Of a stretch of DNA of 64,000 nucleotides, positions 12,194 through 61,127 are shown one piece after another; position 1 is the stretch's first letter; each line of letters opens with the position of its first letter. Both the position numbers and the translations under genes were made by a program. The notes under the pieces were generated by a model. It searched no databases and was not told the DNA's origin. It worked only from the letters and a program-made list of their open reading frames with translations. The stretch lies in assembly GCA_000961585.1 (NCBI GenBank), contig LADN01000051.1, forward strand, positions 1 through 64,000. The letters run 5' to 3'. This DNA is from Peptococcaceae bacterium BRH_c4a (GTDB lineage: Bacteria > Bacillota > Desulfotomaculia > Desulfotomaculales > Desulfocucumaceae).

Positions 12194-12520
12194 AATCCAG
12201 AATTCAGAATTCAGAATGGTGACAGCATACTTTAAAAGTGACCCTCAAGAGACCCCACAGCGACATGCAGTGAGGGGGAGTGATTTAAGTCCGTGCGGAA
12301 TGTACCGGAGGCTGCTACTGTCTCTTAACGACCGAGCCTACGGAATGCCGAGCCGGCTGCAGGACGCAGCCGGAAGCCGGAATCGACGCAAGGATGCGGC
12401 GTTGGAGGCGGTCGGCATTCCGTTGGCGACCGAGTTTAGAGACAGTTGCAGCAGGAGGTTATGCAGGCCGGACTTAAATCGCTCCACCTACCCATTAGCG
12501 ACCATGTAGCGACCCAAAAA
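12185..12520 (+). repeat. Long-hairpin interspersed element, copy B (subfamily 1)
   Basis: After CAGAATT heptamers, this copy folds into one long imperfect hairpin. The outer arms run from about GAGTGATTTAAGTCCG to CGGACTTAAATCGCTC. The middle arms are CTGTCTCT (12318-12325) with AGAGACAG (12438-12445), and the inner arms are CGGAATGCCGA (12341-12351) with TCGGCATTCCG (12412-12422). The apex holds two small hairpins, GGCTGC/GCAGCC and CGCA/TGCG. Weak open frames through it are not conserved as proteins among the copies. Confidence 0.8.
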
Positions 12521-24826: not shown

Positions 24827-24956
24827 CTCTTATCTTTCAGAAGATTTTACTTCTGCAGGAATTAGCACCATGCTATCTCTTACGAAAACATTTTTTCGTT
24901 TGATAGCTGGTTGCCGGGCTTCATTGGGCCAGTCCCTCCACCTCTCCGGATAAGAG
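24827..24956 (-). promoter_or_regulatory. SAM-I (S-box) riboswitch
   Basis: Read on the minus strand, the P1 strands are CTCTTATC (plus-strand 24949-24956 reversed) and GATAAGAG (24827-24834 reversed). Between them lie the S-box core elements GGTGGAGGGACTGGCCC, GAAGCCCGGCAACC and GGTGCTAATTCC. Spacing and order match the family. When SAM is plentiful the downstream terminator should form and shut off the homocysteine operon. Confidence 0.95.
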
Positions 24957-43406: not shown

Positions 43407-46400
43407 ATGACAAATAAACCCGATAAAGTCGGGGCGGTACTGGTACTGGGCTCCGGTATAGCAGGTATCCAGGCGTCACTGGATCTGGCTGAATCCGGCT
43501 ACTATGTATATCTGGTGGAAAAGAACCCTGCCATCGGCGGTACCATGCCTATGTTGGATAAGACATTCCCCACAAATGACTGCTCAATGTGTATTCTGTC
43601 GCCAAAGCTTGTGGAATGTGGACGTCACCTGAATATAGAAACTCTGACCTGTTCAGAGCTCACCGATCTACGGGGTGAACCCGGAAATTTCAAGGCTACC
43701 ATTCTAAAAAAAGCCCGTTTTGTCGACCCGGATAAATGTACGGGTTGCGGGTCCTGCGTAGAAGACTGTCCGGTTAAAGTGGACGATGCCTTCAACCAGG
43801 GACTGGGTAAAAGAAAAGCCATCTACAAGCTTTATGCCCAGGCCTATCCCAATGCCTATGCCATTGATAAGGCAAAATGCCTTAAAATTAAAAAGCCCAA
43901 GGCCTGTGGAAAATGCCTGGAGGCCTGCCAGGCCGGCGCCATAGACCATTTAATGCAAGATGAGACCATTGAGGTCAATGTTGGATCGGTTATTCTGGCG
44001 CCCGGATTTGACGCCTTCCAGCCGGAACAGCTTTTCTACTACGGTTACGGCAAATTCCCCAACGTTCTTACCAGCCTTGAGTTTGAACGAATTTTAAGCG
44101 CCTCCGGCCCCTTCGGAGGTCACCTGATCCGGCCCTCGGATCACAAAGAGCCTAAAAAGATTGCCTGGATTCAGTGTGTGGGCTCCAGAAACTGCAAACT
44201 GGATCACGGCTATTGCTCCTCGGTGTGCTGCATGTACGCCATAAAGGAAGCTGTCATCGCCAAGGAACACACTCCTTATGAATTGGACACCTCAATTTTC
44301 TTCATGGATATGCGGACCTACGGCAAGGAGTTTGAAAAGTATTATGACCGAGCCAGGAATGATCACGGTGTACGTTTTGTCCGGTCCCGGATTTACGAGG
44401 TAACCGAGGCCACTGATGGCAGCGGGAATCTAAAGATACGCTATGCCAATGAGGATGGAACCATCACCAATGAAGAATTCGATATGGTGGTGCTATCCAT
44501 AGGTCTGGAGCCCTCTGAAGAAGTGGTTGAACTGGCCGGCAAACTGGGTGTGGAGGTCAACAAATTTAAATTCGCGGAACCCCCCAGCCTTACCGGAGTA
44601 GGCACCACAAGGCCTGGAATCTACGTGGCGGGAGCCTTCAGCGGACCCAGGGACATTCCTGAGACCGTTATGCAGGCCAGTGCGGCAGCCGGAGATTCGT
44701 CGGTGATACTTTCAGAGGCCAGGGGTACCATGGTCAAGAAGAAGGAGTATCCCCCCGAGAATGAAGTGGCCGGTGATATCGTCCGTACGGGAGTTTTCGT
44801 ATGTCACTGCGGAATTAATATCGGCGGTGTGGTCAAGGTGCCCGATGTGGTTGCCTATGCCAGGACCCTGCCGGGAGTGGTGTTTGCAGACGAGAAGATA
44901 TATGCCTGTTCCCAGGACAGCTCAGGACAGATCAAAGAGGCCATTGAAAAATACGGTCTGAACCGGATAGTGGTGGCCTCCTGCAGCCCCAGGACCCACG
45001 AACCCATGTTTCAGGAAACCCTAAAGGAAGCCGGGCTGAACGCTAACCTGTTCGAGATGGCCAATATCCGGGATCAGTGCTCATGGGTGCACCAGAGTGA
45101 GCCCGAAAAGGCCACCGAAAAATCAAAGGATCTGATCAAGATGGCTGTGAACAAAGCAGCCTTGCTGGAGCCGGTTAAGGGCATCAGCCTGGGAATGAAC
45201 CACGACGCTCTGGTTATAGGCGGTGGCGTATCAGGAATGAATGCGGCACTTAATATGGCAGCCCAGGGCTATAAGGTAAGCCTTGTGGAGAAAGCCGCCA
45301 GCCTGGGAGGAATCGCAGCCAGCATTCGCTACGGGATGAAGGGCGAGGATGTTCAGTCCTACCTGTCTGAACTGATTTCCAGGGTTAACTCCAACCAATT
45401 GATTAAAGTGTATACCGGTGTGGAAATTACCGAGGTGCATGGATTTGTTGGTAATTTCGTAACCAAGCTGTCCAGCGGTGATGAAATACAGCACGGTGTG
45501 GCCATAATCGCCACCGGCGGGAAGGAGTACAAGCCAACAGAGTACCTTTACGGACAAAACCAGAAGGTTAAAACACTGCTTGAGCTTGAGTCCGAACTGG
45601 CCGATGGAAAGCTTAACACCGCCAAGAATGTTGTATTCATTCAGTGCGTGGGATCCAGGGAGCCTGAACGTCCGTACTGCAGCAGGATCTGCTGCACCAA
45701 GTCAGTCAAGCAGGCACTCAAGATTAAGGAAACCAACCCCGATGCCAACGTGTTCATTCTTTACAGGGATATCCGCACCTACGGATTCTATGAGGACCTG
45801 TACACCGAGGCCAGGCGCAAGGGGGTCATATTTGTACGCTACGCCACTGAAGAAAAGCCAGTGGTGGAGGCGGCGGGGGACAAGGTGAAGGTTACCGTCA
45901 CCGAACATGTTCTGGGCGTGCCCATGGTTATAGACGCCGACATGGTGGGCCTGGCCGCCGCTGTACTGCCGGCGGAAAACAATAAGCTTTCACAGTTATT
46001 CAAGGTGCCTTTGAACCAGGAGGGATTCTACCTGGAGGCCCACTTAAAACTTCGTCCGGTTGATTTTGGCACCGACGGGGTGTTCATGTGCGGGCTTGCT
46101 CACGGCCCGAAGAACCTGGAGGAAAATATTTCTCAGGCCAAAGCTGCCGTGGCCAGGGCCTGTACGGTGTTGGCCAAGGAAACCATAGACGTGGAAGGCA
46201 AGTGCGCTGTGGTCAACAAGAAGAAATGTGCCGGCTGTGGTGTCTGTGAATCGGTTTGCCCGGCCAAGGCGGTGTCTGTGGATGCGGCTGAAAAGGTGGC
46301 CGTGGTTAACGAGGCCCTTTGCAAGGGTTGCGGCGCCTGCTCTTCTTCCTGCCGCTGCGGGGCTCTTAACGTCAAGGGTTGCACCAACGAACAGATTATG

Positions 46401-46421
46401 GCCATGATTAACGCGCTATAG
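43407..46421 (+). CDS. hdrA: HdrA1, long-form heterodisulfide-reductase-type flavin subunit
   Basis: This 1004-residue HdrA homolog carries two tandem FAD/NAD-type domains, GSGIAG near residue 13 and GGGVSG near 605. Fe-S motifs follow CTGCGSCVEDCP near 110, and CGKCLEACQ. Two C-terminal ferredoxin motifs are CAGCGVCESVCP and CKGCGACSSSC. In characterised systems HdrA holds the bifurcating FAD. The protein is paralogous to HdrA2 at 51129 over its whole length. It is followed by an MvhD/FlxD-type selenoprotein gene 20 bp downstream and by Flx-type genes, which suggests coupling of NADH and ferredoxin. Confidence 0.9.
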   Translation: MTNKPDKVGAVLVLGSGIAGIQASLDLAESGYYVYLVEKNPAIGGTMPMLDKTFPTNDCSMCILSPKLVECGRHLNIETLTCSELTDLRGEPGNFKATILKKARFVDPDKCTGCGSCVEDCPVKVDDAFNQGLGKRKAIYKLYAQAYPNAYAIDKAKCLKIKKPKACGKCLEACQAGAIDHLMQDETIEVNVGSVILAPGFDAFQPEQLFYYGYGKFPNVLTSLEFERILSASGPFGGHLIRPSDHKEPKKIAWIQCVGSRNCKLDHGYCSSVCCMYAIKEAVIAKEHTPYELDTSIFFMDMRTYGKEFEKYYDRARNDHGVRFVRSRIYEVTEATDGSGNLKIRYANEDGTITNEEFDMVVLSIGLEPSEEVVELAGKLGVEVNKFKFAEPPSLTGVGTTRPGIYVAGAFSGPRDIPETVMQASAAAGDSSVILSEARGTMVKKKEYPPENEVAGDIVRTGVFVCHCGINIGGVVKVPDVVAYARTLPGVVFADEKIYACSQDSSGQIKEAIEKYGLNRIVVASCSPRTHEPMFQETLKEAGLNANLFEMANIRDQCSWVHQSEPEKATEKSKDLIKMAVNKAALLEPVKGISLGMNHDALVIGGGVSGMNAALNMAAQGYKVSLVEKAASLGGIAASIRYGMKGEDVQSYLSELISRVNSNQLIKVYTGVEITEVHGFVGNFVTKLSSGDEIQHGVAIIATGGKEYKPTEYLYGQNQKVKTLLELESELADGKLNTAKNVVFIQCVGSREPERPYCSRICCTKSVKQALKIKETNPDANVFILYRDIRTYGFYEDLYTEARRKGVIFVRYATEEKPVVEAAGDKVKVTVTEHVLGVPMVIDADMVGLAAAVLPAENNKLSQLFKVPLNQEGFYLEAHLKLRPVDFGTDGVFMCGLAHGPKNLEENISQAKAAVARACTVLAKETIDVEGKCAVVNKKKCAGCGVCESVCPAKAVSVDAAEKVAVVNEALCKGCGACSSSCRCGALNVKGCTNEQIMAMINAL

Positions 46422-46441: not shown

Positions 46442-46885
46442 ATGGAATGGGAACCTAAATTAATTGCCTTTCTGTGCAACTGGTGTAGTTATGCTGGGGC
46501 CGATCTGGCCGGCGTGGGCCGGATTCAGTATCCCCCCAACATTCGCGTGATCCGCATACCCTGCTCGGGCCGGATAAACCCTCTGTTTATCATGTCGGCC
46601 ATAAAGAACGGTGCGGATGGCGTGTTAACCTCCGGGTGACACCCTGGTGACTGCCACTATGCTAGTGGCAACCTGGTGGCCAGAAGGAAATTTGCTCTGT
46701 TAAAGAGCCTTATGGAATATATCGGCGTGGATGAGGACCGGGTCAATTTTGCCTGGGTATCAGCCGCCGAGGGTGGCCGGTTTGCGGAACTGGTCAAGGA
46801 TGTAACCGACAAAGTGAGAAAACTGGGCCCCAACAAGGGGCTAAATCCCAGTGAATCGGGGTGTTGTTGCGGATGCAAAAGCTAG
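46442..46885 (+). CDS. MvhD/FlxD1, selenocysteine-containing electron-transfer subunit
   Basis: This 147-residue MvhD-type [2Fe-2S] protein is read through an in-frame UGA at 46637-46639, taken as selenocysteine (residue 66). The frame before the UGA gives [13 protein letters not shown] and ADGVLTSG. After it comes [11 protein letters not shown] and then [10 protein letters not shown]. MvhD relatives have Cys where the UGA falls (G-C-HPGDC). A SECIS-like hairpin follows: TGCCACTA and TAGTGGCA with loop TGC (46660-46662). Translated conventionally, the gene would be two fragments. It feeds electrons between HdrA and the Flx subunits. Confidence 0.9.
46652..46670 (+). promoter_or_regulatory. 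Bacterial SECIS element of mvhD/flxD1
   Basis: An 8-bp perfect stem with a 3-nt loop containing G lies within the coding sequence. The apical loop starts 20 nt after the UGA, inside the window required by bacterial SelB. Confidence 0.8.
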
Positions 46886-47826
46886 CTTCGGCTATACAGG
46901 ACATGGCAAAAAAGCTTCTGGAGGAAAAAAAGGTTGATCTGGTGGTGGGATTTGCCGGGGGCAGCCTGCCTCTTCGCAGCACTCCCTGCTTTATTCGCAA
47001 GCCTGAGGATGCTGAAAAGCTGACCTGGGATTATAGCTGCGAGAACAACCTGGCCAATTACCTGCGCAAGCGGGAAGGCAAGGTGGCCGTTGTGGCCAAG
47101 GGCTGCGACGTTCGTTCCATAGTGGCCCTGATCAATGAAAATCAAGTGAGCAGGGACAATCTATACATCATAGGCATTCCGTGCTCGGGCATGGTGGACC
47201 GGGTAAAGGCGGACGAGGCCGTAGAGGGCAAGGACCTTCTGGCGGTTGAGGAAAATGGGGGATCGCTGATACTGAAAGGCAAAGGGTTCTCAAAGGAAGT
47301 AAAGCTGGACGAACTGCTGCACGACACCTGTAAGGTCTGCCGGTACGGCAATCCGGTAGTCTATGACACCATCATAGGCGATACTGTGCCGGACAAAGCG
47401 GAGGATAGTTTTGCCGATGTGGCAGCCTTTGAGTCTCTTTCTCCGGCCGAACGCAGGGCCGCCCTGGCTGCCGAGTTTTCGAAGTGCATAAGGTGTTACG
47501 CATGCCGCAACGCCTGTCCAATGTGCTACTGCACCGAGTGCTTTGTGGACTGCTCATCCCCGGAATGGATTAAAAAATCCACCGATACTGCCGACAATAT
47601 TATGTTCCAGGCCGGCAGGGTTTTCCACAGCGCAGGACGCTGCGCCGACTGCGGGGCCTGTGACAGAGCCTGCCCCATGGGTATAAACCTGCGTGGCATG
47701 ACACGGAAAATGGTCAAGGAAGTCAAGGATCTGTTCGGATATGAAACTGGTGTCGGCATGGGTGAAAAACCGGCGCTGGCAACATTCACCGCCGGCGATC
47801 CAGAGCCTTTCCTGGTGAAGGAGTGA
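46873..47826 (+). CDS. Flx-type iron-sulfur protein (FlxC-like)
   Basis: This protein of about 317 residues starts at ATG 46873, overlapping mvhD by 13 bp. Its N-terminal two thirds contain scattered cysteines (CFIRKPEDAEK region, AKGCDVRS, GIPCSGM, TCKVCRYG) resembling F420-hydrogenase beta/FrhB-type proteins. A C-terminal pair of clusters follows: CIRCYACRNACP with MCYCTEC, then CADCGACDRACP. In Flx-Hdr systems two Fe-S proteins link the NADH-oxidising FlxA to FlxD/HdrA. Assignment as the C member is from gene order only. Confidence 0.7.
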   Translation: MQKLASAIQDMAKKLLEEKKVDLVVGFAGGSLPLRSTPCFIRKPEDAEKLTWDYSCENNLANYLRKREGKVAVVAKGCDVRSIVALINENQVSRDNLYIIGIPCSGMVDRVKADEAVEGKDLLAVEENGGSLILKGKGFSKEVKLDELLHDTCKVCRYGNPVVYDTIIGDTVPDKAEDSFADVAAFESLSPAERRAALAAEFSKCIRCYACRNACPMCYCTECFVDCSSPEWIKKSTDTADNIMFQAGRVFHSAGRCADCGACDRACPMGINLRGMTRKMVKEVKDLFGYETGVGMGEKPALATFTAGDPEPFLVKE

Positions 47827-47836
47827 GGTGAAAAGG

Positions 47837-48856
47837 ATGATTATAGCCAAGAACGCGTTACCCGGCCTGCTTGATAAGCTGGCTGCCGAATACGAAGTGT
47901 ATGCCCCGGTGAAACAGGGAGCCTACTCGCTGTATAAACAGATTTGCAATGGCGCTGAGGCAGATTTTGGGTATGTCAACAGCAAAATCCCTCCCAAGGG
48001 GATCCTTTTCCCTCAGTCTGAAAAGCTTTACAGCTATTCTGTAACCGGGGAAGGAACCAGTCTGGAGGAGTGCGTAGACACCCGCAAGAAAGTGATTTTC
48101 GGAATTCGTCCCTGTGACGCAAAAAGCCTTTTGCTGATGGATAACGTATTTAACAATGATAAATTCCAGGATCCGTACTACCTCACCCGCAGATCAAACA
48201 CCATCCTGGTGGGAATGGCCTGTAACGATCCTGCCGGCACCTGCTTCTGCACCTCCATGGACGGCGGTCCCTTTGATCAAAGCGGACTGGATCTGCTGCT
48301 TACCGATATAGGGGAAGCCTATGTGGTGGAAGCGGTAAGCCAAAAGGGCAAGGATCTGGCGGCGGCACTGGCCCTGGGCGCCGCTGACGACTCTCAGAAG
48401 GCTGCGGCCGCCGAAGCCAGGGAATCAGCCGAGGTAGCCTGCGCGGTAAATACCGTGGGTCTGAAGGCCAGGCTGGATGTCAATTTCTACGACCCAATCT
48501 GGGAAAAATTTCATGAAAAATGCCTGGGCTGCGCCGCCTGCACTTACTCATGCCCCACCTGCCACTGTTTTGATATAGTGGATGAGGCAAAGGACTGCAA
48601 CGGCTGTCGGGTCAGAAACTGGGATTCCTGCATGTTCCCCCTGTTTACCCTGCACGGGTCGGGACACAACCCCCGGACCAGCGGCAAGGAGCGCATGCGC
48701 CAGAGGATAATGCACAAATTCAAGTATTTTGTGGATAATTTCAATGCGACAGCTTGTGTGGGCTGTGGAAGGTGTATAAAAAACTGCCCCGTTAATCTGG
48801 ACGTTAGAGAAGTACTGGCGGATATCCGGGGCTCGGAAGCGAGGTCGGATAAATAA
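47837..48856 (+). CDS. Flx-type 4Fe-4S dicluster protein (FlxB-like)
   Basis: This protein of about 339 residues is related to the Fe-S subunits of sulfhydrogenase/anaerobic sulfite reductase A. The N-terminal half has FGIRPCDAKSLLLMD and GMACNDPAGTCFC. The C-terminal half holds two CX2CX2CX3C motifs, CLGCAACTYSCP and CVGCGRCIKNCP. It probably relays electrons from the adjacent FAD/NAD protein. Its stop overlaps the next start (TAATG). GTG 47828 is an alternative start. Confidence 0.78.
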   Translation: MIIAKNALPGLLDKLAAEYEVYAPVKQGAYSLYKQICNGAEADFGYVNSKIPPKGILFPQSEKLYSYSVTGEGTSLEECVDTRKKVIFGIRPCDAKSLLLMDNVFNNDKFQDPYYLTRRSNTILVGMACNDPAGTCFCTSMDGGPFDQSGLDLLLTDIGEAYVVEAVSQKGKDLAAALALGAADDSQKAAAAEARESAEVACAVNTVGLKARLDVNFYDPIWEKFHEKCLGCAACTYSCPTCHCFDIVDEAKDCNGCRVRNWDSCMFPLFTLHGSGHNPRTSGKERMRQRIMHKFKYFVDNFNATACVGCGRCIKNCPVNLDVREVLADIRGSEARSDK

Positions 48857-49698
48857 TGCAAAGAAATCCATATCTGCCGCTCCCAATGAAACTGGTAAAG
48901 AACTTTACCGAAACCGAGGATAAGCTTATCCACACTTTCACCTTCCAGTTCCTCAGCGAGGAAGATGAAAAGAGCTTCCCGTATATGCCCGGACAGTTTG
49001 CCGAGGTGTGCGTGTTCGGTAAGGGCGAGGCGCCCTTTGGAATCGCCTCCTCACCCACCGAGCCTGGATTTTTAAAGTTCTCGGTGGCCAAGGTGGGCCT
49101 GGTTTCCACCGCCCTCCACATGATGGAGGAGGGAACCATTGTCGGTGTCCGCGGTCCCCTGGGCAATTACTACCCGCTGGAACAACTGAAAGGCAAGAAC
49201 ATTGTGATCATAGGCGGAGGATTTGCCTTTACCACTCTCAGGTCGATGATTACCTATATACTGAAACCGGAACACAGGGGTGACTACGGAAAGCTGACCG
49301 TTATATACGGCGCCCGGAACCCCGGCCTGCTCCTCTACAAAGAGGAGTTGGAAGAGTGGAACGGACGTTCTGATATTGATTTGGTGTGCACCATTGACCG
49401 CCCGGTGGAAGGATGGACCGGAAGGGTGGGTTTTGTTCCCACCGTCACCAAGGAAGTGGCTCCCAGTTCGGAAAACTCGGTGGCCATTATCTGCGGACCG
49501 CCGGTGATGATCAAATTCACCATGCCCGAGCTGGAGGCCTGCGGCTTTAAGCCCGATCAGATTATAATGTCTCTGGAAAACCGCATGAAGTGTGGAATAG
49601 GCATGTGCGGCCGCTGCAACGTGGGCAACAGGTATGTCTGCAAGGACGGCCCGGTGTTCACCAAGGCCGAGCTGAACCAGTTACCCAACGAATACTAG
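48856..49698 (+). CDS. FlxA-like FAD/NAD(P)-binding oxidoreductase
   Basis: This 280-residue flavoprotein of the ferredoxin-NADP reductase family has an FAD-binding barrel with YMPGQFAEVCVFGKGEAPF, an NAD domain with NIVIIGGGFAFTTLR, and a C-terminal [2Fe-2S]-type CGIGMCGRCNVGNRYVCKDGP. Related to the sulfhydrogenase gamma and FlxA proteins, it should oxidise NAD(P)H or reduce NAD(P)+ at one end of the chain. It is the last gene of the Flx block. Confidence 0.85.
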   Translation: MQRNPYLPLPMKLVKNFTETEDKLIHTFTFQFLSEEDEKSFPYMPGQFAEVCVFGKGEAPFGIASSPTEPGFLKFSVAKVGLVSTALHMMEEGTIVGVRGPLGNYYPLEQLKGKNIVIIGGGFAFTTLRSMITYILKPEHRGDYGKLTVIYGARNPGLLLYKEELEEWNGRSDIDLVCTIDRPVEGWTGRVGFVPTVTKEVAPSSENSVAIICGPPVMIKFTMPELEACGFKPDQIIMSLENRMKCGIGMCGRCNVGNRYVCKDGPVFTKAELNQLPNEY

Positions 49699-49819: not shown

Positions 49820-51058
49820 ATGGAAAATGCCGTTGAAACAATTCAGGCATCAAAACTTAATCCCAAATTCAGGGAAAGGGTGGCCGGGCTGCTTAAAAAT
49901 TATGATTTCGCCCAGTGCCTGACCTGTGGTATGTGCACCGCCGGATGTCCTTACTCGGATATCCACGAAAACAATGACCCCCGTAAATTCCTCCGCAAAA
50001 TCAATTTGGGAATGGAAGAGGAAGTATTCGCCGATCCCTATATCTGGTACTGCACCATGTGCGAGCGCTGCACCATCGAGTGTCCCATGGGCATCAACAT
50101 GGCCGTGGTAACGCGCACCATGCGAGGACAGTTTGACAAGGACAAAATTCCCGGCTATATGCAGACTATTGCCAGAGAGCATATCGAATCCGGCAACCAG
50201 ATGAACGTAGGTCAGGTGGACTACGAGGAAACCCTGGAGTGGATTCAGGATGAGATGCGGGAAGAACTTGAGGACCCCGAATTCACCATTCCCCTGAACA
50301 AGAAGGGGGCCAAGTACTTCTACGGGTTCAACGCCCGGGATATTAAAATCTATGCCAATGAATTGCAAACTACACTCAAGATATTCTATGCCGCAGGCAT
50401 TGACTACACCATCAGCACCAAACGCTGGGATGCCACCAATATATCCCTTTTCACCGGGCATAACGATGACTTTAACGCAATATCCCAGCCGATCTGGGAG
50501 GAGTTCATAAAACTTGGCTGCGAGCAGTTTATTGTTACAGAGTGCGGCCACGCTTTCCGCTCCATGAAATGGGGGCAAAGGATGTTCTGGAAAGGTGAAA
50601 TGTTCCCTATCCGTCATATACTTGAACTTCTCAACGAACTGGTTAAGGAAGGCAAGCTCAAACTGGATCCCGAAGCCATCACAGAATTGGTTACCTACCA
50701 TGATCCCTGCAACACCGCCCGCAAGGAAGGCGTTTGGGAGGCCCCCAGGGAGTTGGCCAAAAGCTTCATCAAGAACTTTGTGGATATGAACCCCAATGGC
50801 AAGATGAACTACTGCTGCGGGGCCGGCGGCGGCGGAATGGCCATGCCGGAATTCAATGAAAAGCGCAAGGCAAAGGGCAAGCGCAAGGTGGATCAGGTAG
50901 TGGAGACCGGGGCGGAAATAGTGATAGTGCCCTGCCACAACTGCATTGACCAGTTCAACGACCTGAACAAGTGGTACCCCGACACCAAGGGCAAATCCAA
51001 GAATATGCACATGTGCACTCTGATGGAGCGCGCCCTGATACTGCCGGAGAAGGAATAG
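49820..51058 (+). CDS. HdrC/HdrB-like fused iron-sulfur subunit (HdrD type)
   Basis: In this 412-residue protein, residues 30-100 carry two [4Fe-4S] motifs as in HdrC (CLTCGMCTAGCP and CTMCERCTIECP). The C-terminal part resembles HdrB/HdrD. Only one complete CCG-type cysteine set is visible (HDPCNTARKEG, NYCCGAGGGG, VPCHNCIDQ). The earlier half-site has a single Cys in TECGHAF, so one noncubane cluster may be absent. In MetFV-Hdr complexes this component connects HdrA to the partner enzyme. It starts at ATG 49820 after GAGGGGAGG. Confidence 0.82.
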   Translation: MENAVETIQASKLNPKFRERVAGLLKNYDFAQCLTCGMCTAGCPYSDIHENNDPRKFLRKINLGMEEEVFADPYIWYCTMCERCTIECPMGINMAVVTRTMRGQFDKDKIPGYMQTIAREHIESGNQMNVGQVDYEETLEWIQDEMREELEDPEFTIPLNKKGAKYFYGFNARDIKIYANELQTTLKIFYAAGIDYTISTKRWDATNISLFTGHNDDFNAISQPIWEEFIKLGCEQFIVTECGHAFRSMKWGQRMFWKGEMFPIRHILELLNELVKEGKLKLDPEAITELVTYHDPCNTARKEGVWEAPRELAKSFIKNFVDMNPNGKMNYCCGAGGGGMAMPEFNEKRKAKGKRKVDQVVETGAEIVIVPCHNCIDQFNDLNKWYPDTKGKSKNMHMCTLMERALILPEKE

Positions 51059-51105: not shown

Positions 51106-51132
51106 GAGAGGACGGATGTGATGTCTAAGTGA
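51106..51132 (+). promoter_or_regulatory. Minimal upstream ORF coupled to hdrA2
   Basis: SD GAGAGGA (51106-51112) is ideally spaced from ATG 51121, which opens a three-codon frame (M-S-K) whose stop overlaps the hdrA2 GTG (GTGA at 51129-51132). The same ACGGATGTGATGT context precedes hdrA1. Confidence 0.5.
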
Positions 51133-54100
51133 GTTCTGAAAAAGTCGGGGCGGTAATGGTGGTAGGGGCCGGTATCGCAGGTATCCAGGCTTCCCTGGAC
51201 CTGGCTGAGTCCGGTTACTACGTGTACCTGGTGGAAAGCACCACGGCCATAGGCGGAACCATGCCTATGCTGGATAAAACCTTTCCCACCAATGATTGCT
51301 CCATGTGCATACTTTCCCCCAAGCTGGTGGAGTGTGGCCGTCACCTGAATATCAAGATTCTCACCAGTTCCGATGTGCAGGAAGTTGCCGGTGAACCCGG
51401 CAACTTCAATGTCAAGATACGGCAGCGCCCCCGCTTCGTAGATGCCAACAAGTGCACCGGCTGTGGTTCCTGCTCCGAAGAGTGCCCCATTAAGGTGGAT
51501 GATGAATTCAACCAGGACCTGGGTAAACGGAAAGCCATATACAAACTTTACGCCCAGGCTTATCCCAACGCCTATGCCATAGACAAGGCAAAATGCCTGA
51601 GGATTAAAAATCCCAAGGCCTGCGGTAAATGCCTGAAGGCCTGCCAGGCCGACGCCATCAATTTTGAAATGGCGGAGGAAACCATAGACCTCAACGTGGG
51701 GGCCATAGTCTTAAGCCCGGGCTTTGAGAAATTCGACGCATCGGCCCTGTTCTATTACGGCTACGGCAAGTTCCCCAATGTACTGACCAGCCTTGAGTTT
51801 GAGCGGGTGTTAAGCGCCTCGGGACCCTTCCAGGGACACATGGTGCGGCCCTATGACGGCAAGGAACCCAAGAAAATCGCCTGGATACAGTGCGTGGGCT
51901 CCCGGAACACCAAGGAAAAGCACGGATACTGCTCATCGGTATGCTGCATGTATGCCATAAAAGAGGCTGTTATTGCCAAGGAACACAGCCACGAACCCCT
52001 GGAGACCACCATATTCTTCATGGATATGCGCACCTTCGGCAAGGGCTTTGAGAAGTATTACGACCGGGCCCGGGATGAAAAGGGAGTGCGCTTCGTAAGG
52101 TCAAGGATTTACGAGGTTACCGAGAAGAACGACGAATCCAAAAACCTGATCATACGGTATTCCAATGAGGACGGAACCATAAGCACCGAGGAGTTTGATA
52201 TGGTGGTGCTTTCGGTGGGCCTGCAGCCTTCCAAGTCCGTAATGGAACTGGGAGAAAAACTGGGTCTGGATATGAACCAGTACGGCTTTGCCGACACCCA
52301 GAAGCTCACCGGCGTCAACAGCAGCAAGCCCGGAATCTATGTGTCCGGCGCCTTCTGCGGTCCCAAGGACATTCCCGAGACAGTGATGCAGGCCAGCGCG
52401 GCGGCCGGGGCATCGGCCAGCCTTTTGGCCGAGTCAAGGGGAACAAAGGTAACCGAGAAAGAGTATCCCGCCGAGAAAGACGTGTCAGGTCAGGATCCCC
52501 GCATAGGCGTGTTTGTTTGCCACTGCGGAGTAAACATCGGAAGCGTGGTAAATGTTCCCGGGGTTGTGGAAATGGCCAAGGGACTGCCCAATGTGGTTTA
52601 TTCCGGGGAGTATCTCTATGTTTGCTCCCAGGACAGCCAGAACACCATGCGCCAGATAGTGGAGGAGAACGGTCTGAACAGGGTGGTGGTGGCTTCCTGC
52701 AGCCCCCGCACCCACAAGCCGCTGTTCCAGGAAACCATGATGGAGGCCGGTGTGAACAGGTATCTGTTTGAGATGGCCAACATCCGGGATCAGTGTTCCT
52801 GGGTACACCAGAACGAGCCTGACAAAGCCACTGAGAAGGCCAAGGATTTGGTCAAAATGATGGTTGCCAAGTCCGCACTGCTGAGCCCCATTCATCAGCC
52901 TTCGGTTGATGTTACAAAGGCCGCTATGATTATAGGCGGAGGGGTTTCCGGAATGAACAGCGCCCTCTCCCTGGCCGATCAGGGCTACAAGGTATATCTG
53001 GTGGAAAAAGCGGACAGCCTTGGAGGTATAGCCAGACGCATCAAGCAGGGCTTCCGGGGAGAGGACGTTCAGGAATATCTGGCAGAACTGATTGATAAGG
53101 TAAAAGCCAATTCCTTAATTGAACTGTTCACCGGCACCGAGGTGCAGGATGTCAAGGGTTTCGTGGGCAATTTTAAGTCCACCCTTTCAAATGGCGCACA
53201 GATACAGCACGGCGTGGTGATCATCGCCATTGGCGGAGAAGAGTATCTTCCCACAGAATACCTGTACGGCAAGAATAACCGGGTTATGACCCAGCTGGAA
53301 ATGGAAGAGGCCATGACAGCCGGTGACTCCAGGTTTGACCAGGCAAAGAACATCGTGATGATACAGTGCGTGGGTTCCAGGGAGCCGGAAAGGGGCTACT
53401 GCAGCAGGGTATGCTGCACCAAGTCGATCAAACTGGCCATCAAGGCAAAGGATAAAAACCCCGACGCCAATGTGTTTATACTGTACCGGGATATCAGATC
53501 CTACGGTTTCTTTGAGGATATGTACACCGAGGCCCGCCGCAAGGGAGTAATCTTCATACGCTACAGCGTGGAACAAAAACCCCTGGTGGAGGAGGCCGGC
53601 GGAAAGTTGATGATTACCGTCACCGACCACGTGCTGGGACAGCCGGTGGTCATTGAGGCTGACATCTTGGGCCTGGCAGCGGCCAAACTGGCCTCCCGGG
53701 ACAACAAGAAAATGAACAGCCTGTTCAAGGTGCCCCTAAACGAGGACGGTTTCTTCCTGGAGGCGCACATGAAGCTGCGTCCGGTGGACTTCGCTTCCGA
53801 GGGTATTTTCATGGCTGGCCTGGCTCACGGCCCCAAAAACTTGGAGGAGAATATTTCCCAGGCCAAGGCGGCGGCAGGCAGGGCCGGAGTAATACTCTCC
53901 AAGAGCAAACTGGAATCCCACGGTGTGACAGCGGTTGTGCAGCCGGACAAGTGCGCCGCCTGTCTAACCTGCGTGCGCCTGTGTCCCTATGGAGCGCCCA
54001 AGGTCAGGAACTATGCGGCTGAAATAGAGTCGGTGCTTTGCCAGGGCTGCGGATCCTGCGCCGGTGAGTGCCCCAACAAGGCCATTACACTACAGGGATA

Positions 54101-54155
54101 CAACGACCGGATGTACATGAGCATGGTCAACGGCCTGTGCAAGGAGGTGCTGTAA
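51129..54155 (+). CDS. hdrA: HdrA2, long-form heterodisulfide-reductase-type flavin subunit
   Basis: This 1008-residue paralog of HdrA1 has the same order: GAGIAG FAD motif near residue 14, CTGCGSCSEECP near 110, CGKCLKACQ, a second FAD motif GGGVSG near 605, and C-terminal CAACLTCVRLCP and CQGCGSCAGECP ferredoxin motifs. Its neighbours (HdrC/B-like upstream; MvhD2, MetV, MetF downstream) match the Moorella MetVF-HdrABC-MvhD cluster. It is therefore the likely bifurcating flavin subunit for methylene-THF reductase. GTG 51129 overlaps a minimal upstream ORF. Confidence 0.9.
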   Translation: MSSEKVGAVMVVGAGIAGIQASLDLAESGYYVYLVESTTAIGGTMPMLDKTFPTNDCSMCILSPKLVECGRHLNIKILTSSDVQEVAGEPGNFNVKIRQRPRFVDANKCTGCGSCSEECPIKVDDEFNQDLGKRKAIYKLYAQAYPNAYAIDKAKCLRIKNPKACGKCLKACQADAINFEMAEETIDLNVGAIVLSPGFEKFDASALFYYGYGKFPNVLTSLEFERVLSASGPFQGHMVRPYDGKEPKKIAWIQCVGSRNTKEKHGYCSSVCCMYAIKEAVIAKEHSHEPLETTIFFMDMRTFGKGFEKYYDRARDEKGVRFVRSRIYEVTEKNDESKNLIIRYSNEDGTISTEEFDMVVLSVGLQPSKSVMELGEKLGLDMNQYGFADTQKLTGVNSSKPGIYVSGAFCGPKDIPETVMQASAAAGASASLLAESRGTKVTEKEYPAEKDVSGQDPRIGVFVCHCGVNIGSVVNVPGVVEMAKGLPNVVYSGEYLYVCSQDSQNTMRQIVEENGLNRVVVASCSPRTHKPLFQETMMEAGVNRYLFEMANIRDQCSWVHQNEPDKATEKAKDLVKMMVAKSALLSPIHQPSVDVTKAAMIIGGGVSGMNSALSLADQGYKVYLVEKADSLGGIARRIKQGFRGEDVQEYLAELIDKVKANSLIELFTGTEVQDVKGFVGNFKSTLSNGAQIQHGVVIIAIGGEEYLPTEYLYGKNNRVMTQLEMEEAMTAGDSRFDQAKNIVMIQCVGSREPERGYCSRVCCTKSIKLAIKAKDKNPDANVFILYRDIRSYGFFEDMYTEARRKGVIFIRYSVEQKPLVEEAGGKLMITVTDHVLGQPVVIEADILGLAAAKLASRDNKKMNSLFKVPLNEDGFFLEAHMKLRPVDFASEGIFMAGLAHGPKNLEENISQAKAAAGRAGVILSKSKLESHGVTAVVQPDKCAACLTCVRLCPYGAPKVRNYAAEIESVLCQGCGSCAGECPNKAITLQGYNDRMYMSMVNGLCKEVL

Positions 54156-54157
54156 AG

Positions 54158-54613
54158 GTGGGTTTTGAACCGAAAATTGTTGGTTTCTGCTGCCACTACT
54201 GAGCATACTCTGCTGCGGACCTGGCAGGTTCGATGAGACTTCAGTATGCAACCAATATAAGAATAGTGGAAATGACTTGCTCCGGTAATATCGACCACCG
54301 CGTGATTCTTAACGCCTTTGAAGAAGGCGCCGATGGTGTGTTTGTAGCCGGCTGCATGGAGGGTGACTGCCATTTCCTGAAAGGGAATATACGGGCCCGG
54401 AAGAGAGTAAACGCGGTTAAAAAACTGCTGGATGAAATAGGGATAGGCGGAGACCGTCTGGAAATGTACAACCTGTCTTCAGCCCAGGGAGGCCGCTTTG
54501 CCGAAATAGCCAATGATATAACAGCAAAAATAAAGGATCTGGGACCCAACCCGTTATTTAAAAACAGCTCATGCTGCGGCTGCAGCTGCTCGAAAGAAGG
54601 TGGGGACCAATGA
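54158..54613 (+). CDS. MvhD2, selenocysteine-containing electron-transfer subunit
   Basis: This 151-residue MvhD homolog starts at GTG 54158 (AAGGAG within the end of hdrA2). UGA at 54200-54202 (residue 15) falls exactly where relatives have the Cys of the N-W-C motif (here FCCHY-Sec-AYSAADLAG). The second motif keeps Cys (VAGCMEGDCHFLKGN). The C-terminus has CCGCSC. A two-part SECIS-like stem follows the UGA. The stop overlaps metV (ATGA). Without UGA recoding, only a fragment from 54233 would remain. Confidence 0.92.
54203..54249 (+). promoter_or_regulatory. Bacterial SECIS element of mvhD2
   Basis: Outer arms GCATACT (54203-54209) and AGTATGC (54243-54249) pair perfectly. The inner stem GGACCT/AGGTTC (54217-54222 and 54226-54231) has loop GGC. 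The apical loop starts 20 nt after the UGA. Confidence 0.82.
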
Positions 54614-55278
54614 TTATTGCCCAACAGAAACAAATCAAAGAAATCGCCGCCATGGTCAGCGACTGCAAAAAAGTGGCCTTGATAGGGTGTGCAGGATGTG
54701 TCACAGTGTGCCTTTCCGGCGGTGAAAAAGAAACTGAAATAATGGCCGCTGCCCTTCGTATTATGCGCAAGCTGGAAGGCAACCCGGTGGAAACAATAAC
54801 CTTCACCGCAACCCGCCAGTGCGACCCGGAATACGTGGAGGCCTTGGACGGAGTGGTCAAGGATGCCGACGCCATCATATCCCTGGCCTGCGGGGTAGGA
54901 GTGCAGTACCTGGCCGAGCGTTTTGACAAGTGGGTGGTTCCCGCCCTGGACACCAACTTTATAGGTGGGTCCAAGGTGCACGGGGTATGGGAAGAGAAAT
55001 GCGGAATGTGCGGAGACTGCGTTCTGCACAAGACCGGAGGCATCTGCCCCATTATACGCTGCTCCAAGAGCATCCTGAACGGCCCCTGCGGCGGTTCACA
55101 GTACGGCAAGTGTGAAATAAGCAAAGATGTTGATTGCGCCTGGCAGTTGATATACGATCGCATGAAGTCCCTGGGTAAACTGGATAAGCTCATGGCCATC
55201 CAGCCGCCCAAGGACTGGACCAAGTCCAGAGACGGCGGTCCCCGCAGGGCCGTCAGGGAGGATGTGATGATAGGGTGA
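54610..55278 (+). CDS. metV: MetV, zinc/Fe-S partner of methylene-THF reductase
   Basis: This 222-residue MTHFR C-terminal-domain protein has cysteine motifs in ALIGCAGCVTVC, KCGMCGDCVLHKTGGICP and GPCGGSQYGKC. MetV is the obligatory small subunit of MetFV-type methylenetetrahydrofolate reductases and links MetF to the Hdr/MvhD subunits. ATG 54610 overlaps the mvhD2 stop as ATGA, and the metV stop overlaps the metF start as GTGA, so the three are tightly coupled. Confidence 0.92.
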   Translation: MIIAQQKQIKEIAAMVSDCKKVALIGCAGCVTVCLSGGEKETEIMAAALRIMRKLEGNPVETITFTATRQCDPEYVEALDGVVKDADAIISLACGVGVQYLAERFDKWVVPALDTNFIGGSKVHGVWEEKCGMCGDCVLHKTGGICPIIRCSKSILNGPCGGSQYGKCEISKDVDCAWQLIYDRMKSLGKLDKLMAIQPPKDWTKSRDGGPRRAVREDVMIG

Positions 55279-56204
55279 GTTATTTAAGCAAACTGCAACG
55301 CATTTTAGACAGCGGACAATTTGCCGTCACCGCCGAAATCGGCCCGCCCAAGCACGCATCCGCCCACGGTGTGCGCCACCACGCTGAAATGCTGGTGAAC
55401 CATGTGGACGCCACCAATATCACCGACTGCCAGACCGCCATAGTGCGCATGAGCAGTATTGCGGCCGGTGTGCATATACTGGACTGCGGCATTGAGCCCA
55501 TAGTCCAGATGACCTGCCGCGACCGCAACAGAATCGCCATGCAGTCGGACCTCTTGGGGGCCTACAGCCTGGGCATGAGAAACGTGCTCTGCCTGTCCGG
55601 CGACCATCAAAAGTTCGGCAACCACCCCTCCTCCAAAAACGTCTATGACGTGGATTCCATGCAGCTTATTCAGTTGCTGGCCAGGATGAGGGACGAGAAG
55701 AAATTTTTCTCCGGTGAAGAGTTTAAGGATCATGAACCCAAGTTCTACATCGGGGCTGTGGCCAACCCCTTCGCCGACCCCTTTGAATTCAGAGTGGACC
55801 GGCTGGAGAAGAAGGTGGAGGCCGGGGCTCAGTTTATTCAGACCCAGTGCATATTCGACATGGAGCGTTTTGAGCGCTTCATGGAGATGGTAAGGGAAAG
55901 AGGGATCGACCAGAGGACTCATATTCTGGCCGGGATTACGCCCCTTAAGGGCTGGAGGGCCGCCAAATACCTGCAGACCGGAGTTTCCGGAATGCTGGTG
56001 CCTGATTCATTGGTGGAACGGCTTAAAGGCGCCCAGGATCCCAAGCGCGAGGGCATCGAGGTGGCCATTGAGCAGATCAATTACATCAGGGAAAAAGTCA
56101 AGGGAGTGCACGGCGTCCATGTCATGGCCATCGCATGGGAAGAGGTCGTTCCTGAAATAGTTGAGCGTACCGGACTTTTTCCGCGTCCCAAGTTCGAAGA
56201 CTAA
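55275..56204 (+). CDS. metF: Methylenetetrahydrofolate reductase
   Basis: This 309-residue FAD-dependent TIM-barrel enzyme reduces methylene-THF to methyl-THF, the methyl donor for AcsE. The family features AEIGPPKHASAHG, MSGDH-type LCLSGDHQKFGNH and QFIQTQCIFDMERF are visible. GTG 55275 overlaps metV. It is the last gene of the operon, ending at a strong terminator. The length and the neighbouring MetV and HdrA/MvhD indicate the Moorella-type MetFV rather than the enteric enzyme. Confidence 0.94.
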   Translation: MSYLSKLQRILDSGQFAVTAEIGPPKHASAHGVRHHAEMLVNHVDATNITDCQTAIVRMSSIAAGVHILDCGIEPIVQMTCRDRNRIAMQSDLLGAYSLGMRNVLCLSGDHQKFGNHPSSKNVYDVDSMQLIQLLARMRDEKKFFSGEEFKDHEPKFYIGAVANPFADPFEFRVDRLEKKVEAGAQFIQTQCIFDMERFERFMEMVRERGIDQRTHILAGITPLKGWRAAKYLQTGVSGMLVPDSLVERLKGAQDPKREGIEVAIEQINYIREKVKGVHGVHVMAIAWEEVVPEIVERTGLFPRPKFED

Positions 56205-56264: not shown

Positions 56265-56724
56265 TCGTTAAGGAAAGTATATACCATATTAAAGTATTAA
56301 AGCGCTAAATCGCCAAAGCATTTTTATGTACCCCAGAGTTTTTCCGGGGTCGCTCCGGGGTCACTTGAGGGTCGCTGCATTGTCGCTAATGGGTAGGCGG
56401 AGCGATTTAAGTCCGGCCTGCATAACCTCCTGCTGCAACTGTCTCTAAACTCGGTCGCCAACGGAATGCCGACCGCCTCCAACGCCGCATCCATGCGTCG
56501 ATTCCGGCTTCCGGCTGCGTCCTGCAGCCGGCTCGGCATTCCGTAGGCTCGGTCGTTAAGAGACAGTAGCAGCCTCCGGTACATTCCGCACGGACTTAAA
56601 TCACTCCCCCTCACTGCATGTCGCTGTGGGGTCGCTTTTAAGGCAGCCTGTCACCATTCTGGATTCTGGATTCTGGCTTCCGCCGTCTGCAAGACGGCAC
56701 CGCCGGCAAGGCGGTTATTTTTAT
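56258..56724 (-). repeat. Long-hairpin interspersed element, copy E (subfamily 1)
   Basis: This full copy is in reverse orientation. Its tail TTTTTTATCGTTAAGGAAAG is identical to that of copy D and starts at the T run of the metF terminator. The arms CTGTCTCT and CGGAATGCCGA match TCGGCATTCCG and AGAGACAG perfectly, as in copy B. The head hairpin GCCGTCTGCAAGACGGC and the stem ACCGCCGGCAAGGCGGT end it near 56724. It fills the gap between metF and the P-type ATPase. Confidence 0.82.
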
Positions 56725-59109: not shown

Positions 59110-59490
59110 AATAACCGCCTTGCCGGCGGTGCCGTCTTGCAGACGGCGGAATCCAGGAGCCAGAAGCCAGGAGCCAGAATAAGCAAGCGTGACCCTCAAG
59201 CGACATGCAGTGAGGGGGAGGGTTTTTAGTCCAGGCGGATGTTCCGGAGGCTGTTATCTGGCTCTTGGCGACAGAGCCGTACGGACTGCCGAACCGGCTG
59301 CAGGACGCAGCCGGTAGCCGGAATCGACGCAAGGACGCGGCGTTGGAGGCGGTCGGCAGTCCGTTAGGCGACGAGCTTAGAGCCAGTTCAGCCGGAGGAT
59401 AAGTAGATCGGACTCAAACCCCTCCACCGGCCACAGAGTGACCCCGGAGCGACATGCAGTGATTTAAGTCCGTGCGGATGCTGGAAATGA
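59106..59490 (+). repeat. Long-hairpin interspersed element, copy F (subfamily 2)
   Basis: The copy begins at the cadA stop codon. The arms CTGGCTCT (59258-59265) and AGAGCCAG (59379-59386), and CGGACTGCCGA (59282-59292) and TCGGCAGTCCG (59353-59363), are perfectly complementary yet differ in sequence from copies B and E. The tail differs from those of D and E: it ends in a second TGCAGTGATTTAAGTCCGTG-like piece. It fills the gap between cadA and the ArsR gene. Confidence 0.82.
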
Positions 59491-60010: not shown

Positions 60011-60077
60011 ATTATTCATTTGTATTATACATCTTTCCGTGGTAGCCTGTAAGCATAGGGTACAAAGGAGTGTCGCC

Positions 60078-61127
60078 TTGAAAAACCAATTTCCCAATAT
60101 TAATTTAACTTCTTATTCGCCTGGGTCCGGGTGAGCTTGTAAAATAGGTCCGGCGGACCTTACTCAAATACTGCGTTGCCTGCCGCCAATCAAAGACCTG
60201 AACGTCCTGGCGGGCCGTGACGATAACGCGGCAGTCTATAAACTTAATGACGAAACAGCTCTGGTTCAAACCGTGGACTATATAACTCCCGTTGTTGACG
60301 ACCCCTATCATTTCGGAATGATAGCCGCTGCCAACGCTCTAAGCGATATTTACGCCATGGGCGGAAAACCGGTAATGGCTTTGAATTTAATAGGTTTTCC
60401 CAACCAAAGCCTTCCCCTTTCAATCATGGAGGCCATCATGAAAGGTGGTGCTGATAAAGCTGCCGAGGCTGGCGTGACCATCGTTGGAGGTCATTCGATT
60501 ACCGACAATTCTCCCAAGTACGGACTTGTAGCAACCGGTTTTTTAAATGTCCGAAGCATGATTACAAAACGCGGTGCGAGGCCGGGAGACTCTCTAATCC
60601 TTACAAAACCGCTGGGCGTCGGTGTGATTACCACAGGGATCGACCACAAAATGGTGGGTGACGATACTGTCAACCGGGTAGTAAAGATTATGACCACCTT
60701 AAACAAAAGGGCATCGGAAATTATGCTTGCCGTCGGGGTGAATGCCTGTACCGACGTAACAGGATTCGGGCTGTTGGGACACCTGCGGGAGATACTTGCA
60801 GCCAGTAATGTCGGAGTGCGCATAACAGCCTCCACGGTTCCCGTTATCCCGGAATCAGAGGAGTTGATACAGGCAGGAGCGGTGGCCGGAGGAACTCATA
60901 ACAATTACCGCTTCCTCCGGGATATGGTTAAATGGGACCCTTCCTTGTCCAAAGAAATGAGACTGATTCTTTGCGATCCTCAGACATCAGGCGGTCTTTT
61001 AATAGCAGTATCCCCTGAGAATAAGGATCGTTTAATTATGGAGCTTCAAGAAGACAAAGAAATTCTGGAGGCGGCAGAAATTGGGGCAATAATTGAAAAT
61101 CCCGGAGAAATAAGTGTGCTGGCTTGA
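60078..61127 (+). CDS. selD: Selenophosphate synthase, selenocysteine-containing
   Basis: This 349-residue enzyme makes selenophosphate from selenide and ATP, the Se donor for Sec-tRNA. TTG 60078 follows AAAGGAG. UGA at 60132-60134 (residue 19) lies in the active-site loop GSG-Sec-ACKIGPADL, exactly where SelD proteins have Cys or Sec. Later motifs include GRDDNAAVYKL, DYITPVVDDPYHFG and GGHSITDN. Without recoding, only a protein lacking the catalytic loop (from about 60273) would be predicted. Other sel genes are not in the window. Confidence 0.95.
60146..60160 (+). promoter_or_regulatory. Bacterial SECIS element of selD
   Basis: AGGTCC (60146-60151), loop GGC and GGACCT (60155-60160) form a perfect 6-bp stem. 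The apical loop begins 17 nt after the UGA. Confidence 0.82.

Follow-up and report, generated by a model that had tools for sequence, protein, structure and literature searches.

The 64,000-nt stretch of Peptococcaceae bacterium BRH_c4a analyzed here (hereafter the window) encodes two paralogous MvhD/FlpD connector proteins, MvhD1 and MvhD2, whose genes lie 7.7 kb apart and each carry an internal in-frame UGA codon. These genes and their neighbors are as follows:

43407–46421 (+): HdrA1, ~1004 aa with two HdrA-type copies (NF040770, 977 bits, below the full-length cut-off of 1100)
46442–46885 (+): mvhD1, Sec66-type MvhD/FlpD connector protein, Flx-linked (PF02662, E 3.3e-52)
46861–47826 (+): FlxC-like/FrhB_FdhB_C iron-sulfur protein (PF04432, Fer4_8)
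47837–48856 (+): FlxB-like iron-sulfur protein (PF17179, E 5.2e-32)
48856–49698 (+): FlxA-like FAD/NAD(P)-binding subunit (PF00175, PF10418; NF006220, 222 bits, below cut-off)
49820–51058 (+): HdrCB-like 4Fe-4S/CCG-domain protein (PF02754, PF13534)
51129–54155 (+): HdrA2 of the MetVF cluster (NF040770, 999 bits, below the full-length cut-off of 1100)
54158–54613 (+): mvhD2, Sec15-type MvhD/FlpD connector protein, MetVF-linked, its frame continuous when TGA is taken as Sec (PF02662, E 1.6e-48)
54610–55278 (+): MetV (PF12225, E 1.7e-38), its ATG overlapping the mvhD2 stop
55275–56204 (+): MetF, methylenetetrahydrofolate reductase (PF02219, E 1.2e-44)

Both paralogs cover the whole PF02662 profile, scoring 164 and 176 bits where the cut-off is 22.3, and each is directly preceded by an hdrA gene; MvhD2 further matches the MvhD/VhuD chains in the PDB with E-values of 1e-37 to 1e-39. 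Against the NCBIfam VhuD exception model (NF045873) the pair scores 159.6 and 132 bits, under the curated cut-off of 215, and the two proteins are relatives of that model, not members of it. The original prediction had placed one paralog in an Flx and the other in a MetVF context, and the profile matches of the neighboring genes bear this out, with the Flx proteins being Flx-like. The arrangement hdrCB-hdrA-mvhD-metV-metF at the mvhD2 locus is the same as that of the known HdrABC-MvhD-MetVF complex from Moorella thermoacetica (Mock 2014, as summarized in PMC5736913 and PMC6085437). The [2Fe-2S] cluster of MvhD lies between the module that donates electrons and the FAD of HdrA at which they bifurcate (PMC12350162, PMC6019823). 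We propose that MvhD1 and MvhD2 serve as the small [2Fe-2S] connectors in two complexes built on HdrA, respectively HdrA-FlxABC-like and HdrA-MetVF. HdrA itself has a Sec-containing version (CxxU; PMC13188914) that is a selenoprotein of the same complexes, whereas both HdrAs in the window have Cys at that position (motif NDCSMC in HdrA1).

The mvhD2 gene starts with a GTG at 54158, with an AAGGAG box upstream at 54142–54147, and its terminal TGA (54611–54613) forms an ATGA overlap with the metV start. By this gene layout, UGA in one and the same mRNA would specify Sec at codon 15 of mvhD2 and termination at codon 152. Elsewhere in the window are three TwoAYGGAY RNA matches just above the gathering score (12303–12460, +; 56424–56581, −; 59242–59400, +) and a SAM riboswitch (24827–24956, −; 90 bits).

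In-frame UGA codons and their downstream hairpins

The elements bearing on the decoding of the two UGA codons in the window are the following:

46637–46639 (+): UGA at mvhD1 codon 66, read as Sec (motif GUHPGDC, opposite GCMEGDC in MvhD2)
46653–46669 (+): putative bacterial SECIS hairpin of mvhD1 (GCCACTA-TGC-TAGTGGC)
54200–54202 (+): UGA at mvhD2 codon 15, read as Sec (motif CHYU, opposite CNWC in MvhD1)
54216–54232 (+): putative bacterial SECIS hairpin of mvhD2 (CGGACCT-GGC-AGGTTCG; 7/7 pairs)
60039–61127 (+): selD (TIGR00476, 386 bits, cut-off 125), its end set at the next in-frame TGA

Re-reading of the sequence upheld what had originally been stated of the mvhD2 coordinates, the UGA at residue 15 and the spacing of the paralogs, and their alignment established the reverse pattern claimed for MvhD1: U15 of MvhD2 is paired with C15 of its paralog, and U66 of MvhD1 lines up with C66 of MvhD2, which retains the Cys in GCMEGDC. 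Thus, in both paralogs the in-frame UGA aligns with a Cys of the relatives. The genome encodes the complete selenoprotein machinery, with adjacent selA and selB genes (C9:24645 and 26057), a tRNA-Sec (selC) with the anticodon TCA (UCA), and the selD gene of the window, which itself contains an in-frame UGA (SGUACKIGP, 60132–60134). Directly 3' of each mvhD UGA lies a putative SECIS-like stem-loop recognized from sequence, and the two share a register in which a 7-bp stem with a 3-nt loop starts 13 nt past the UGA codon.

Since this register was taken post hoc from the two hairpins of the window, the relatives of the two genes serve as its test, using a register-specific pair count that replaced an earlier folding z-score test, which was weak for Sec15. 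At least six of the seven pairs are formed in 27/27 Sec15 MetVF genes versus 3/55 of their Cys15 MetVF relatives, and in 67/67 Flx-linked Sec66 genes versus 12/98 Cys66 relatives (Fisher p ~1e-18 for Sec15 and 3e-34 for Sec66, both uncorrected for relatedness). The codons for A20, D21, L22, A23 and G24 take a single form each in the Sec15 genes versus two to six forms in the Cys relatives. The Sec15 stem hardly varies, and its support hence comes from the Sec-versus-Cys contrast and this synonymous constraint rather than from covariation. A different hairpin with a 3-nt shift (ATTACCT-GGA-AGGTAAT) follows the Sec66 codon of the Chloroflexota-type MetVF-MvhDs.

The same in-frame TGA recurs across independent assemblies (27 MetVF-linked Sec15 and 67 Flx-linked Sec66 genes), which excludes chance. 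A reading of the MvhD2 UGA as a genuine stop, a mark of pseudogenization or an artifact of assembly, with the protein starting downstream, could draw on UGA being a standard stop codon and on an in-frame ATG a short distance further into mvhD2; however, it would have to account for the same UGA in 27 genes of independent assemblies, the preservation of the protein sequence by the codons upstream of it, the SECIS-like hairpins accompanied by a full Sec machinery, and the standing of MvhD as an established Sec family (PMC13188914, PMC2702500). We consider such an explanation barely credible, and at the sequence level it is already strongly disfavored. The evidence at this level instead identifies both UGAs as Sec codons, each predicted to be directed by its own downstream hairpin. 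As a practical consequence, mvhD genes with such a UGA are likely annotated as truncated.

Distribution and origins of the two Sec sites

MvhD/VhuD is a verified selenoprotein family, for which a 2026 review lists a CxxU motif and two Sec residues (PMC13188914), and the vhuD gene of M. maripaludis has two TGA codons (PMC9622424). In the PDB entry 9SFI, chain K (VhuD) has an X, i.e., a non-standard residue, at exactly the MvhD columns 15 and 66; in the HdrA of the same entry an X occupies the known Sec position of HdrA, which corresponds to Cys197 of 5ODC, an Fe-S ligand position (PMC9012536), and we therefore infer that X in 9SFI stands for Sec. Hence, both Sec sites are already known to biology, together in the methanogen VhuD, which belongs to the same family as MvhD1 and MvhD2 and has Sec at the same two columns. 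However, the Methanococcus protein combines both Sec residues and relies on an archaeal 3'-UTR SECIS, whereas MvhD1 and MvhD2 have one Sec each, with their own in-frame hairpins, and occur in Flx and MetVF contexts. Among bacteria, Desulfobacterium autotrophicum HRM2 is described as having four Sec-MvhDs (MvhD1, 2, 3 and 5), which, as in BRH_c4a, adjoin hdrA/hdrL genes; the accessible portion of that account gives no Sec positions, SECIS elements or split between sites (PMC2702500).

Our survey of MvhD relatives comprised 80 loci from a named genome collection and ~80 regions from relatives, the latter picked mostly for containing a TGA. Among 218 domain hits Sec occurs only at columns 15 and 66, and the same holds for 27 further proteins inspected by eye, including seven with both. 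The 210 distinct MvhD domains divide into 91 with Sec66, 28 with Sec15, seven with both and 84 with neither, though these frequencies are not population estimates, as the sampling favored UGA genes and many of the genes are related rather than independent observations. By genomic context, 187 distinct proteins are partitioned into MetVF-linked (50 Cys/Cys, 27 Sec15, five Sec66, one Ser15), Flx-linked (67 Sec66, three Cys/Cys) and other (17 Sec66, one Sec15, the remainder without Sec) versions. The BRH_c4a genome encodes nine FlpD domains, five of which have one TGA (three Sec66 and two Sec15). The second of these Sec15 proteins (CNWU; locus L003, contig C37) has a long C-terminal extension, its frame staying open for 259 aa beyond the UGA, and a hairpin in the common register was not found there.

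With the two Sec columns left out of the alignment, tree building separates a MetVF-type clade (89 members, support 93) from the rest (117 members, support 88); this was a quick tree of ~130 columns in which many inner branches are weak. The placement of the MetVF-linked and Flx-linked MvhDs in separate clades implies that their Sec residues arose independently, in line with the original prediction; parsimony calls for a minimum of seven changes for Sec15 and 16 for Sec66, and the MvhD1-type and MvhD2-type hairpins differ in sequence. The sequence data thus lend good support to separate Sec acquisitions in the two lineages.

A pattern search with confirmation by translation recovered double-Sec MvhD genes in seven of 297 Desulfobacterota genomes (L215–L221); each Sec15 codon is followed by a strong hairpin, and most of the Sec66 codons by hairpins that differ in strength. 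The same pattern, the efficacy of which is evident from these seven cases, retrieved none from 299 genomes of the window's own phylum, a weak negative given that few of these are expected to hold an MvhD. In both of the two double-Sec loci checked, a gene for a molybdopterin (Fdh-type) oxidoreductase lies near mvhD, which suggests a formate dehydrogenase partner for these proteins. A limited search, mostly of papers available without subscription, found no description of a split of the two sites between neighboring paralogs, of bacterial double-Sec MvhDs or of the hairpins, and these three aspects are apparently new.

The original prediction had linked the choice of site to different electron routes. 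In its strict form, with Flx complexes needing Sec66 and MetVF complexes needing Sec15, this would fit the contrast between 27 Sec15 and five Sec66 among the MetVF-linked proteins versus zero and 67 among the Flx-linked ones (Fisher p 1.4e-19, a value that overstates independence because route and clade coincide in Firmicutes), the conservation of the Sec66-Flx/Sec15-MetVF pair in ~19 genomes, with Desulfofundulus australicus and D. thermosubterraneus being examples of cultured relatives that have it, and the molybdopterin oxidoreductase genes near both double-Sec MvhDs examined. However, Sec66 occurs in the MetVF-MvhDs of Chloroflexota and others (L143, L145, L155, L160, L162) along with the 3-nt-shifted hairpin, 50 MetVF-MvhDs have Cys only, L003 has Sec15 outside the MetVF context, and seven Desulfobacterota genomes have both sites in one protein. 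With these exceptions, dictation of the site by the electron partner appears unlikely, and this part of the original prediction is weakened and lacks support. Another potential determinant is whether the protein sequence at a given site can encode a SECIS hairpin at all, as the SECIS of bacteria is embedded in the open reading frame and competes with the protein sequence (PMC9622424). Enumeration of synonymous codons largely refutes this, since every group would be able to encode an average of 6.5–7 of the seven pairs at either site; moreover, the double-Sec proteins accommodate both sites, leaving encodability a highly improbable explanation. The best explanation is that site choice follows mainly clade and lineage and only loosely the partner enzyme. 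It is part of an overall model that we regard as likely, in which the MvhD fold would offer two cysteines that have repeatedly been swapped for Sec in evolution, namely residue 15 (CxxU) and residue 66 (GU), with bacterial lineages using either site, both or neither, and with each UGA of the two connector subunits being read as Sec through the hairpin just 3' of it.

Cysteine conservation and potential roles of the two selenocysteines

Both UGAs fall on conserved columns, contrary to what would have undermined the original prediction: C12, C41, C66 and C71 are invariant across 47 diverse sequences, and C15, while not invariant, is more than 90% conserved. Residue 15 is Ser in L135 and Asp in divergent FlpDs that keep the other four cysteines. 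This pattern suggests that C12, C41, C66 and C71 are the cluster ligands and that C15 is a fifth thiol. Accordingly, the earlier designation of both Sec positions as probable [2Fe-2S] ligands is supported in part: by conservation C66 is a probable ligand, whereas the replaceable C15 may be a non-ligand thiol. Our search of the literature for publications naming the MvhD cluster ligands found none.

With Sec66 at a probable ligand position and Sec15 perhaps not at one, the two residues should act differently: Sec66 would tune the cluster, and Sec15 would act as a selenol beside it. More specifically, and only tentatively, Sec66 could ligate the [2Fe-2S] cluster of MvhD as a naturally occurring selenolate and Sec15 could be an adjacent non-ligand selenol, with selection having possibly acted on two chemically distinct positions, each settable independently so as to give proteins with neither, one or both. 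The usual rationale for Sec is a catalytic role at substrate or metal sites, but MvhD only passes electrons. The paralog pair, together with the Cys-only and double-Sec relatives, offers a ready comparison of selenium at a probable Fe-S ligand versus a neighboring thiol in flavin-based electron bifurcation.

Two further sets of relatives differ in Sec content. One genome (L071) encodes a Cys-only and a Sec15 MetVF-type MvhD 7 kb apart in addition to a Sec66 MvhD (positions 503, 7510 and 13092), a set that possibly represents selenium-dependent isoforms. Two Desulfobacterota genomes (L198 and L208) encode near-identical MvhDs whose chief difference is Cys versus Sec at residue 66.
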